DNA of 64,000 bases from Embleya scabrispora. GTDB lineage: Bacteria; Actinomycetota; Actinomycetes; Streptomycetales; Streptomycetaceae. The position numbers and the translations under genes are program-made. Location of the stretch: assembly GCF_002024165.1 (NCBI RefSeq), contig NZ_MWQN01000001.1, forward strand, positions 4,257,501 to 4,321,500, written 5' to 3'. Of the stretch, positions 18,309-47,981 are shown piece by piece. Every line of letters starts with the position of its first letter. Within the stretch, counting starts at the first letter, position 1. The notes below the pieces were generated by a model. It searched no databases. It worked only from the letters and a program-made list of their open reading frames with translations, and had not been told where the DNA came from.

Positions 18309-21077
<2,769 letters not shown>

Positions 21078-21093: not shown

Positions 21094-21300
21094 GGTCCTC
21101 ATGCGCCGGACGGGCTGAGCGGACGTTGGTGGGCGGTGGTCGTGGCTGGTGGCGTGGGTCGGTTTGGGCCGGCCTGCGGCCCGCCGGTCCTCATGCGCCG
21201 GACGGGCTGAGAGGGCGCCGTTGGCGGCGGTTGTGGATGGCGGCCTCGGTCGGGCTTTGGCGGCCTGCGGCCTGCTGTCCTCAAGCGCCGGACGGGCTGG
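21094..21300. repeat. Imperfect 91-bp tandem repeat with GCGCCGGACGGGCTG core
   Basis: Three copies of the core TCCTCATGCGCCGGACGGGC (21096-, 21188- and, with AAG for ATG, 21279-) lie 92 and 91 nt apart, and the sequence between copies is also similar (GGCCTGCGGCC just before each later copy). This GCGCCGGACGGGCTG motif recurs between genes in Streptomyces genomes (recalled knowledge). No gene is seen here. Confidence 0.8.
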
Positions 21301-21333: not shown

Positions 21334-21962
21334 CTCGTGCCCTACGCCCCGCGCCTAGCGCTTCGCGTCCTGCGCCTCGTGCCTCGTGCCCTGCGCCTCG
21401 CGCCCCGCGCCTCGCGCCTTCCGCCTCGTGCCATGCGCCCCGCGCCTCGCGCCTTCCGCCTCGTGCCATGCGCCCCGCGCCTCGCGCCTTCCGCCTCGTG
21501 CCATGCGCCCCGCGCCTCGCGCCTTCCGCCTCGTGCCATGCGCCCCGCGCCTCGCGCCTTCCGCCTCGTGCCATGCGCCCCGCGCCTCGCGCCCTGCGCC
21601 TCGCGCCTCGTGCCTCGCGCCCTGCGCCTCGCGCCTCGTGCCTCGCGCCCTGCGCCTCGCGCCTCGTGCCTCACGCCCTGCGCCTCGCGCCTCGTGCCCC
21701 GCGCCTCGTGCCCCGCGCCTCGTGCCCTGCGCCCCGCGTCCCGCGCCCCGCGCCTCGTGCCCTGCGCCCCGCGCCTCACGCCCCGTGCCCCGCGCCTCGT
21801 GCCCTGCGCCCTGCGCCTCGTGCCCTGCGCCCCGCGCCTCACGCCCCGTGCCCCGCGCCTCGTGCCCTGCGCCCTGCGCCTCGTGCCCTGCGCCCCGCGC
21901 CTCGCGCCTCGTGCCCCGCGCCTCGTGCCCTGCGTCCCGTGCCCTGCGCCTCGCGCCTCGCG
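21334..21962. repeat. Heptanucleotide minisatellite (consensus YGCCYYG), about 90 units
   Basis: Roughly 630 bp built from 7-nt units such as CGCCTCG, TGCCCTG and CGCCCCG. Higher-order arrays are visible: five exact 35-nt units (CCATG landmarks at 21431, 21466, 21501, 21536, 21571), then a 28-nt unit repeated about four times (21587-21700), then a 63-nt unit repeated twice (CCTCACG at 21774 and 21837). Since 7 is not a multiple of 3, every frame on both strands stays open and codes a 7-residue repeat; I treat these as non-coding. The strands are strongly biased, C-rich on the plus strand. Confidence 0.93.
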
Positions 21963-22020
21963 TGGGGGATGGTGGGTGGGGGAGGGCCCGGGCCTGGGTT
22001 GGTTCGGGCCCTCTTTGTTT

Positions 22021-22635
22021 TCAGGTCAGTTCGTCGTGTTCCAGGGCTGTGCAGAGCCAGGTGTTGGTGGGGTGGCGGGTGGGGGCGTCGCGTTCCAGGC
22101 GGAAGGCCACTGTGAGGACCCAGGATGGGGCGCGTAGGCGGGCGTAGCCCTCGGCGATGCCTTCGGCGGGGGCGTGGCCGCCGCAGGACTCCACCCGTAG
22201 GTGTCCGACCCCGCGGGCGGCGAGGCGGCGGATCAGGTGTTGTGTGGTGCCGTAGACGGGGGCGGAGGCGTACGGGCGCAGCTGGGTGAGGGCGCGGCGG
22301 CCCGAGGCGATTTCGGCGAGCGCGTGGGCCAGTCGTCGAGAGCGCAGCCGGGCTTCGGTCGGGTCCGGTTCGGCCAGGGCCGGGACCAGGCGCAGCGCGG
22401 GGCGCGGGTTGGGTTGTGGCGCGAGCCGGGAGCCCGGCCGGGAGTCGGATCCGTGTTCGGGGTGGGGCAGCGGGTGCGGGGCGTGGGCCAGGTTGCCGTG
22501 GGTGAGGGTGCCGTGGTGTCCCCACGGGCGCAGCGGGATCACCTCGGCGACGGCCGGAGTGTCGAAGGGGGTTTCGCCTGCGGGGGCTCGGACCACGTAC
22601 AGGTGTGGTGGCGAGCCGGTGTTCGTGTGGACCAT
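22021..22635 (-). CDS. Rv3235-family hypothetical protein
   Basis: A 204-residue protein. The N-terminal half is Pro/His-rich and variable. The C-terminal half (about 95-204) matches the Rv3235 family found next to secA in mycobacteria and streptomycetes, with RALTQLRPYASAPVYGTTQH and a final WVLTVAFRLER segment. The function is unknown; gene order suggests a link with SecA or cell growth but nothing more. ATG at 22635 follows a good ribosome site (GGGGAGG on the coding strand, just downstream of 22635). It points toward the minisatellite and secA. Confidence 0.82.
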   Translation of the reverse strand: MVHTNTGSPPHLYVVRAPAGETPFDTPAVAEVIPLRPWGHHGTLTHGNLAHAPHPLPHPEHGSDSRPGSRLAPQPNPRPALRLVPALAEPDPTEARLRSRRLAHALAEIASGRRALTQLRPYASAPVYGTTQHLIRRLAARGVGHLRVESCGGHAPAEGIAEGYARLRAPSWVLTVAFRLERDAPTRHPTNTWLCTALEHDELT

Positions 22636-22877
22636 GGGTCCTCCCCGTGAAGCGGATGTGCCGGTTGTGGCGCACGTCGTCCCGCTCGTTCCCCCGACCG
22701 GGACGTGTGCAGGCACTTCCTAGCCGGCCGGCGCCGCGCGGTCAACCATTCGTCTGGTCGGCGCTGCGATTACGCTGACGCGCGTCGACTCACGCGTGGT
22801 GGCGCCGGGTCGGCCCTCGTTTCGGCGCCCTTCGTCCCCGAAGGAGTGTCCGGATTTCACTCGATTGGAGTCGCCCG

Positions 22878-46797: not shown

Positions 46798-46949
46798 GAA
46801 CAGCGGCATTACCGCGACGCATCCGATCAAGGGGAGTCCGAGGCGCATCGACAGATGGCACGGACGCGCGTCGGGTGATGCCCAACGGCGTTTGGGACCC
46901 CACCCGCGCCGGCGCGGATACGGGGATCTCATCCAACTGGGGTTAATTG

Positions 46950-47981
46950 ATGTCAACCAAAATGCGCGTCCGGACGGCTCGGATAGCCGCCGCCGCGCTG
47001 TTCGCGGCGGGCGCGTCCTTCGCGGTCGCCGGTGTGGCGAGCGCGACGGACGGCGGTCCGGACGACGGGTGCGAGCAGACGCACACGTGCCCGGGCGGCC
47101 CCGGCGGCGCCTCGACGGGTACGTCGACCGGTACGTCCACGGGCACGTCGACGGGCACCTCCACCGGTACGTCGACCGGTACGTCCACGGGTACCTCGAC
47201 CGGTACCTCGGCGGGCACGTCCACCGGCACCTCGACGGGGACCTCCACCGGCACGTCGACGGGTACCTCGACCGGTACGTCGACGGGGACGTCCACGGGC
47301 ACCTCCGCGGGTACCTCGACCGGCACGTCCACGGGGACCTCGACGGGCACCTCCACCGGTACGTCGACCGGTACGTCCACGGGTACCTCGACCGGTACCT
47401 CGGCGGGCACGTCCACCGGCACCTCGACCGGTACGTCGACGGGGACCTCGACCGGCACTTCGGCCGGTACGTCGACGGGGACGTCCACCGGTACCTCGAC
47501 GGGCACCTCGTCGGGTACTTCGACGGGCACGTCGACGGGCACGTCGGCCGGGACCTCCACGGGCACCTCGACCGGTACGTCCGCGGGCACCTCGACGGGC
47601 ACGTCGTCGGGCACCTCGGCCGGGAGCACCAAGGGCAACTCGGGCGGCTCGGGCGACACCAGCAAGGGCAACTCGGGCGGCAGCACCGGTGGCAACACCT
47701 GTGACGCCACGCACGCCTCCGGCGGGCTGGACCTGAACTGCGGCGGCGACGGGAACACCCGGACGAGCAGCGGCAACGACCAGCAGAACGCCCCCGTCCG
47801 CGACTTCGGCGGCGGCGACACCGCACCGGCGCAGCAGGCCGCGAAGAAAGAACTGGCCGACACCGGTTCCGGCGCCAACATGGCGTTCCTGATCGTCGGC
47901 GGTGCCGCGATGGCGGCCGGTGGCTTCACCTTCACCGTGCTCCCCGCGCGGCTTCGGCGCCGCCAGGCCGAGGCGGCCTGA
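46950..47981 (+). CDS. Secreted Thr/Ser/Gly-repeat protein with LADTG sortase signal
   Basis: A 343-residue surface protein. The Sec signal peptide ends near AVAGVASA before TDGG. A short Cys-containing segment (CEQTHTCPGGPGG) follows, then about 43 tandem GTST/GTSA/GTSS tetrapeptides (nt 47115-47630), a Gly/Asn/Ser linker with one CDATHASGGLDLNC segment, and a sorting signal: LADTG, a hydrophobic helix (MAFLIVGGAAMAAGGFTFTV) and RLRRR. LAxTG is the motif used by streptomycete class E sortases. It is therefore probably wall-anchored and, being so Thr/Ser-rich, may be glycosylated. I used ATG 46950; a TTG lies one codon earlier. Specific function unknown. Confidence 0.88.
   Translation: MSTKMRVRTARIAAAALFAAGASFAVAGVASATDGGPDDGCEQTHTCPGGPGGASTGTSTGTSTGTSTGTSTGTSTGTSTGTSTGTSAGTSTGTSTGTSTGTSTGTSTGTSTGTSTGTSAGTSTGTSTGTSTGTSTGTSTGTSTGTSTGTSAGTSTGTSTGTSTGTSTGTSAGTSTGTSTGTSTGTSSGTSTGTSTGTSAGTSTGTSTGTSAGTSTGTSSGTSAGSTKGNSGGSGDTSKGNSGGSTGGNTCDATHASGGLDLNCGGDGNTRTSSGNDQQNAPVRDFGGGDTAPAQQAAKKELADTGSGANMAFLIVGGAAMAAGGFTFTVLPARLRRRQAEAA
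47115..47630 (+). repeat. 12-nt coding tandem repeat (GTST units)
   Basis: About 43 copies of a 12-nt unit of the form GGNACNTCNACN. A block of about 85 nt at 47159-47243 recurs almost unchanged 192 nt (16 units) downstream, at 47351-47435, evidence of recent block duplication within the array. Confidence 0.9.

Follow-up and report, generated by a model that had tools for sequence, protein, structure and literature searches.

A layered heptanucleotide minisatellite in the convergent gap between secA and a DUF6459 gene of Embleya sp. NF3

The DNA described here (the window, 64,000 nucleotides) belongs to strain NF3, which is given as Streptomyces scabrisporus, now Embleya sp., in PMC5813959. 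In the window, secA and a gene for a DUF6459 protein converge on a gap of 943 bp, which holds a long array of heptamers. Copies of a short element, spaced by about 91 bp, lie to the left of the array, and the interval between the array and the DUF6459 gene contains a GC-rich hairpin. The features of the locus are as follows.

18309–21077, + strand: secA, the upstream convergent gene, recognized by Pfam SecA domains (earliest start in the ORF list, 18168)
21094–21299, + strand: tandem repeat of 91 bp in 2.3 copies, in which the element GTCCTCAWGCGCCGGACGGGCTG occurs three times (TRF, sequence reading)
21339–21961, no strand assigned: heptamer array, 89 units of GCCYYGY, C-rich on the + strand (TRF, autocorrelation, unit-by-unit scoring)
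21402–21590, no strand assigned: exact 35-nt super-unit, 5.4 copies (exact-copy analysis)
21584–21667, no strand assigned: exact 28-nt super-unit, 3.0 copies (exact-copy analysis)
21752–21898, no strand assigned: exact 63-nt super-unit, 2.3 copies (exact-copy analysis)
21983–22013, + strand: GC-rich hairpin with a T-rich tail, beyond the array (folding, terminator scan)
22021–22635, − strand: gene for a DUF6459 protein, the downstream convergent gene (PF20060; the longest ORF starts at 22716)

The array runs from 21339 to 21961 in one unbroken phase of 7, without an indel, and the roughly 90 units and 630 bp reported in the first-pass annotation are thus confirmed, corrected to 89 in-phase units. 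Scoring covered 90 frames, the last of which, GTGGGGG, is not counted as a unit, and 70 of them match the pattern GCC[CT][CT]G[CT] exactly; the commonest heptamers are GCCTCGT (20), GCCCCGC (17), GCCTCGC (16), and GCCCTGC (15). Rare or non-unit frames number nine, and four of them fall within the first five frames of the array, a crowding at this edge that is as expected if edges exchange less. Autocorrelation peaks at lags of 35 (0.81), 63 (0.80), and 105 (0.81), and TRF scores the array at 618, 540, and 515 for periods of 105, 35, and 28 nt, respectively. The super-units of 28, 35, and 63 nt are each a multiple of 7; their layering had been described before and stands, with the copy numbers (five, about four, and two) amended to those listed above. 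The longest exact run comprises 22 units at a lag of five, compared with a maximum of 8 across 5000 shuffles of the unit order, and together with the exact nested copies it supports the earlier proposal that the layering arose by slippage or unequal exchange. The strand bias noted at the same time is borne out as well, with 54.6% C and 27.8% G on the + strand.

The same gap differs in each of the relatives compared, with one genome taken per Embleya species. Embleya hyalina carries there an unrelated 30-bp array of 7.3 copies (TRF) that is G-rich on the secA strand, a skew opposite to that of the NF3 array. In E. scabrispora the gap is short and has no TRF array, and in a fourth Embleya genome (G003) no TRF array is found within 900 bp of secA, so that heptamers are absent from the secA gap in all three other Embleya genomes examined. 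This absence, together with the exact copies, makes the recent activity suggested in the first-pass annotation plausible. Two further loci, chosen because they bear arrays and hence not a random sample, behave in a similar way: upstream of a sigma-factor-like gene, NF3 has a 15-mer in 22.7 copies and E. hyalina has a 60-mer and a 29-mer (7.4 copies), with no array there in E. scabrispora, and upstream of an NAD-binding epimerase-like gene E. hyalina has heptamers in 51 copies and NF3 has 29- and 59-mers. The NF3 15-nt array (stretch L003, 1499–1835) lies in a divergent gap between O-methyltransferase-like and sigma-factor-like genes; these genes, like the epimerase-like one, were named from sequence. 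For the family as a whole, 41 genomes matched secA, and of the 30 loci among the matches listed, four without the motif were dropped; seven of the remaining 26, NF3 and E. hyalina included, have a TRF array with a score of at least 100 starting no more than 900 bp from the stop codon. The units of these seven arrays are all different and some of the arrays perhaps lie outside the gap, so the recurrence of arrays beside secA across the family is suggestive only.

An alternative in which a frame of the array encodes a repetitive low-complexity protein draws on the + strand ORFs of 266, 253, and 215 aa, none of which has a Pfam match. It had been stated that all six frames are open, which is inexact: over 21339–21968 two frames are free of stops, three have a single stop each, close to the left end of the array (+ strand, 21356; − strand, 21344 and 21357), and one − frame has three (21673, 21778, and 21841). 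Open frames are in any case trivial here, since the 7-nt unit is poor in stops and each frame reads all seven of its phases. With no counterpart in the orthologous gaps either, a coding role has almost no chance of being correct; the array appears to be non-coding on all these counts, and it serves as a warning for gene callers.

The NF3 assembly comprises 10,958,352 bases in 8 contigs. A false expansion or collapse of the array would be favored by its being seen in a single assembly and by the indels that a consensus made from PacBio reads alone may carry, although the phase does not break through 89 units. The PacBio reads, about 2.0 Gb with an N50 of 28,885 bases, should span the array, making misassembly unlikely; the genome announcement that reports them gives a total of 10,760,685 bp, different from the assembly figure (PMC5408122). 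We therefore give an assembly artefact an extremely small chance.

The hairpin to the right of the array folds with −31.4 kcal/mol (z −4.9) and has its T-rich tail on the secA strand, which makes it a likely terminator for secA transcription, even though the terminator scan taken alone does no better than chance (one found versus 0.6 expected); E. hyalina and E. scabrispora have hairpins at the equivalent place with less T-rich tails. As the hairpin is located beyond the array, transcription from secA may traverse the array before ending, and the 3′ transcript of secA may include it. Such a long 3′ RNA, C-rich, poorer in G, and rich in YC, could load Rho and thereby separate the converging transcripts. 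The composition of the secA strand and the T-tailed hairpin beyond the array agree with a role of this kind, as does the report that in S. avermitilis only some 25% of the ends of transcripts have a U-rich motif (PMC8780764). However, congeners lack the array, the 30-bp array that occupies this gap in E. hyalina is skewed the other way, and the predicted RNA is well folded rather than open (z −3.45, 20 shuffles). A role in ending transcripts accordingly has only a small chance.

The strand bias had been proposed to favor quadruplexes or R-loops; in the corresponding alternative, such structures of the G-rich strand would have a part in secA expression or genome instability. G4Hunter scores are indeed raised, reaching |1.2| at 24% of array positions versus 2.7% of the window, and the − strand of the array has 37 runs of three or more G; many canonical motifs are not found, the four-run motif occurring once on the − strand and never on the + strand. 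Judged by these counts, the quadruplex potential of the array is moderate. An R-loop driven by secA is not favored, because it needs a G-rich transcript and the secA transcript is C-rich; secA transcription places G on the template strand, where it does not favor R-loops, and the hairpin separates the DUF6459 gene from the array. Since the array is not conserved either, an effect through quadruplexes or R-loops has a very small chance.

Slipped hairpins were considered as a drive for growth of the array and rejected. In the RNA fold, 4-bp stems recur every 7 nt. The DNA of the array, folded as three segments on both strands, does not exceed its shuffles in stability (z −1.3 to 1.7), and the units of 96 non-coding arrays, at a mean percentile of 0.60, fold worse than words drawn at random from intergenic DNA. 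Among the rearrangements of each unit, ranked by hairpin, GCCTCGC is first of 15 on one strand and seventh on the other, GCCCCGC is first of 3 on both, GCCCTGC is fourth and eighth of 15, and the most frequent unit, GCCTCGT, is 19th and 14th of 30.

A search for the array in the genomes of relatives, run with a 300-nt piece, gave many matches without establishing kinship: the piece matches 80 of 120 genomes, and a control that was reversed but not complemented matches 84 of 120, the own genome being included in both. Most of the cross-genome matches thus reflect shared GC-rich, low-complexity composition and not a family, and a heptamer family across relatives is rejected. In some genomes the forward match is the stronger (E. 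hyalina, 5e-61 versus 2e-22; G067, a member of the same family, 6e-32 versus 4e-10), and in others the reversed one (G062, 7e-23 versus 4e-10; G080, 1e-20 versus 2e-6). The strongest resemblance beyond NF3 is to the 51-copy GCCTCGC heptamer array of E. hyalina, which is at a different locus, and G067 has an array with 7-, 28-, and 35-nt layering; given these two arrays, some sequence preference is possible. Within the NF3 genome, ten further matches were obtained at E ≤ 0.001, some of them overlapping, the strongest 72% identical. No second array of the GCCYYGY unit is found among the match loci read (seven of the ten matches), which have irregular repeats or units of 5 or 15 nt.

Comparison with described repeat classes places the NF3 array among the heptamer-derived satellites, or minisatellites. 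Cyanobacterial STRRs are heptanucleotide tandem arrays in intergenic positions with one unit dispersed over many loci; the NF3 array shares the heptamers and the intergenic position, but the other NF3 arrays read carry different units and the same-unit array occurs at one place among these loci, so a dispersed STRR-like family is not the appropriate class. The intergenic tandem arrays of mycobacteria (VNTR/MIRU) are likewise found in an actinomycete and vary in copy number between strains, with units longer than those of NF3. The array is not a CRISPR array, its units being contiguous and without spacers, nor, with its single non-overlapping canonical motif, a G-quadruplex minisatellite. REP and BIME elements are dispersed palindromic units, from which the array is set apart: it is not dispersed, and its DNA folds no better than shuffles. 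Rfam returned for the array a single chance-level match (E 0.85). In turn, bacterial satellites derived from heptamers have been described by Subirana and Messeguer, who proposed local duplication errors and list S. coelicolor with 38 satellites (PMC6749651). The NF3 array resembles the satellites presented there in its short head-to-tail units, its heptamer origin, and the existence of non-coding examples, and it has the corresponding properties: head-to-tail copies beyond chance, larger units built from mutated short ones, a non-coding position, and restriction to one lineage at one locus. The Chloroflexus heptamer GATAGRA of the same source makes up 22 satellites in one genome, whereas the NF3 unit is found at one place, with layered super-units. 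For two strains of S. albulus, TRF counts of 1,159 and 1,022 minisatellites are given (PMC9195005), which, like the NF3 array, are TRF-detected tandem arrays of a GC-rich streptomycete; the comparison extends to these counts, not to heptamers or convergent gaps. The literature search, which mostly did not reach subscription journals, found no named element of this kind, and the first-pass annotation had known of none in actinomycetes; that claim of an exceptional array is weakened by the heptamer-derived satellites already published and by the S. albulus counts. The array fits the published class as a handsome example and is no new class.

On this evidence the array is very probably a non-coding, lineage-specific, GC-rich minisatellite that slippage and unequal recombination have produced in a weakly constrained gap. 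A short stretch of heptamers downstream of secA would have grown by replication slippage. Blocks of 4, 5, and 9 units would then have been copied, either through unequal recombination within the locus or through larger slips, yielding the nested super-units of 28, 35, and 63 nt; we infer both steps from the anatomy of the array. It would persist because it lies between two converging gene ends, past both stop codons and where no promoter is expected, and weak constraint between converging genes would account for its location. Judged solely by its non-conservation, the array probably has no selected function. Several points speak against this explanation: the species is represented by one strain, the excess of arrays in convergent gaps is weak outside a 464-kb region (see below), the heptamer array of E. 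hyalina and the layered one of G067 allow for some sequence preference, and the NF3 15-mer array lies in a divergent gap.

Several other repeats were observed in the course of this work. The element GTCCTCAARCGCCGGACGGGCTG, present at 21094–21299 of the window and often tandem itself, also occurs across NF3 and E. hyalina. Its 15-base core has 93 exact copies in NF3, 65, 14, and 34 in three congeners, and 0–5 per genome in 37 others; the reversed control has 0–5 in all 41. The exact 13-base core occurs 22 times within 464 kb of NF3, with 21 of the copies in convergent gaps, arranged in tandem and filling six gaps, all of them convergent; in E. hyalina there are 21 such cores in five convergent gaps, seven in one tandem gap, and one in or overlapping a gene. 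A 26-nt array of about 23 copies in NF3 (L075, 1779–2432), TGAGGCCAACCAGCCCGGCCGGCGCT, is a head-to-tail variant of this element in a gap called tandem by a home-made gene caller. No name for the element was found in the literature search; in place and dispersion it resembles REP elements, which are described as frequent between convergent genes (PMC1525189).

At 46947–47981 of the window (+ strand) lies a 344-aa ORF with a long TGTS-type Thr/Gly/Ser repeat in units of 24 and 36 nt (47105–47618). It has a signal-like stretch at the N-terminus and LADTG plus a hydrophobic stretch at the C-terminus, and it resembles a sortase-anchored surface protein. Irregular GC-rich repeats of more than 1 kb are found about 8–10 kb from the first base of a second NF3 contig of 1,247,984 bases (C2; stretches L004 and L006); the 1,248-kb contig of NF3 is described as related to the secondary replicon EEC1 (PMC13152386).

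The secA array is one of many. A sample of 0.864 Mb of NF3, made up of the window and 40 further stretches, has 47 arrays with a TRF score of at least 100. Of these, 30 are intergenic; the heptamer array ranks third in length among them and, with two longer ones in the same sample, is not exceptional in its own genome. Periods divisible by 3 are found in all 17 coding and in 15 of the 30 intergenic NF3 arrays, and in five of seven coding and 11 of 19 intergenic arrays in 0.4 Mb of G067. A privileged period of 7 is rejected, as neither sample has an excess: non-coding stretches of period 7 number two in the 0.8-Mb sample of NF3 (three of period 12, two of period 5) and four in the 0.4 Mb of G067 (nine of period 15, five of period 10).

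Arrays with a TRF score of at least 100 were also counted per gap of at least 60 bp, with genes taken from the home-made caller, which is based on codon usage. In a contiguous 464-kb region of NF3 they occupy 11 of 47 convergent gaps, compared with 5 of the 146 tandem gaps (p 0.0001) and 1 of the 65 divergent ones (p 0.0003); without the secA gap the convergent count is 10 of 46 (p 0.0003 and 0.0006, respectively). In 400 kb of E. hyalina, a largely orthologous region, the counts are 8 of 38 convergent, 3 of 126 tandem, and 1 of 54 divergent. Of the 40 sampled NF3 stretches, three overlap the contiguous region and were left out; in the other 37, arrays are present in 6 of 63 convergent gaps, in 10 of 235 tandem gaps (p 0.12), and in 2 of 103 divergent gaps (p 0.054). 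When the NF3 sample is pooled with G067, the convergent excess has p 0.03 relative to tandem gaps and p 0.0009 relative to divergent ones. The preference for convergent gaps is thus clear in one NF3 region and unproven genome-wide.

Comparison of 287 orthologous gaps of NF3 and E. hyalina, with arrays scoring at least 60, reveals that 11 have an array in both species, 21 in one, and 255 in neither. For the 49 convergent gaps among them the counts are 8, 8, and 33 (odds ratio 17.6, p 0.0003), and this sharing has p 0.0009 without the secA gap, 0.01 in the longer array-free gaps, and 0.07 in the shorter ones. At three of the eight shared convergent sites, and at five of the 11 in all orientations, secA included, the arrays have no sequence match; at the other six of the 11 they do match, so part of the sharing is due to common descent. 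We can speculate that particular convergent gaps in Embleya are lasting tandem-repeat factories, in which the site keeps an array as its unit is replaced; the array of the secA gap would then come from a local process and not from tolerance alone, and head-on transcription, supercoiling, or the GTCCTCAARCGCCGGACGGGCTG element would be examples of such a process. This idea is tentative and, on balance, unlikely: several of the shared arrays are weak (about two copies), one region was compared, the convergent excess is weak outside the contiguous NF3 region (p 0.12), and tolerance, or turnover of units in an old array, would mimic the same pattern.

Taken alone, the secA array is a local curiosity. 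The non-coding minisatellites of Embleya to which it belongs are common, differ between close species, and are gathered between converging genes at least in the region compared. They are candidate markers for strain typing, and they could serve to test, in a natural setting, whether repeats in GC-rich bacteria grow because of head-on transcription or are only tolerated by it.
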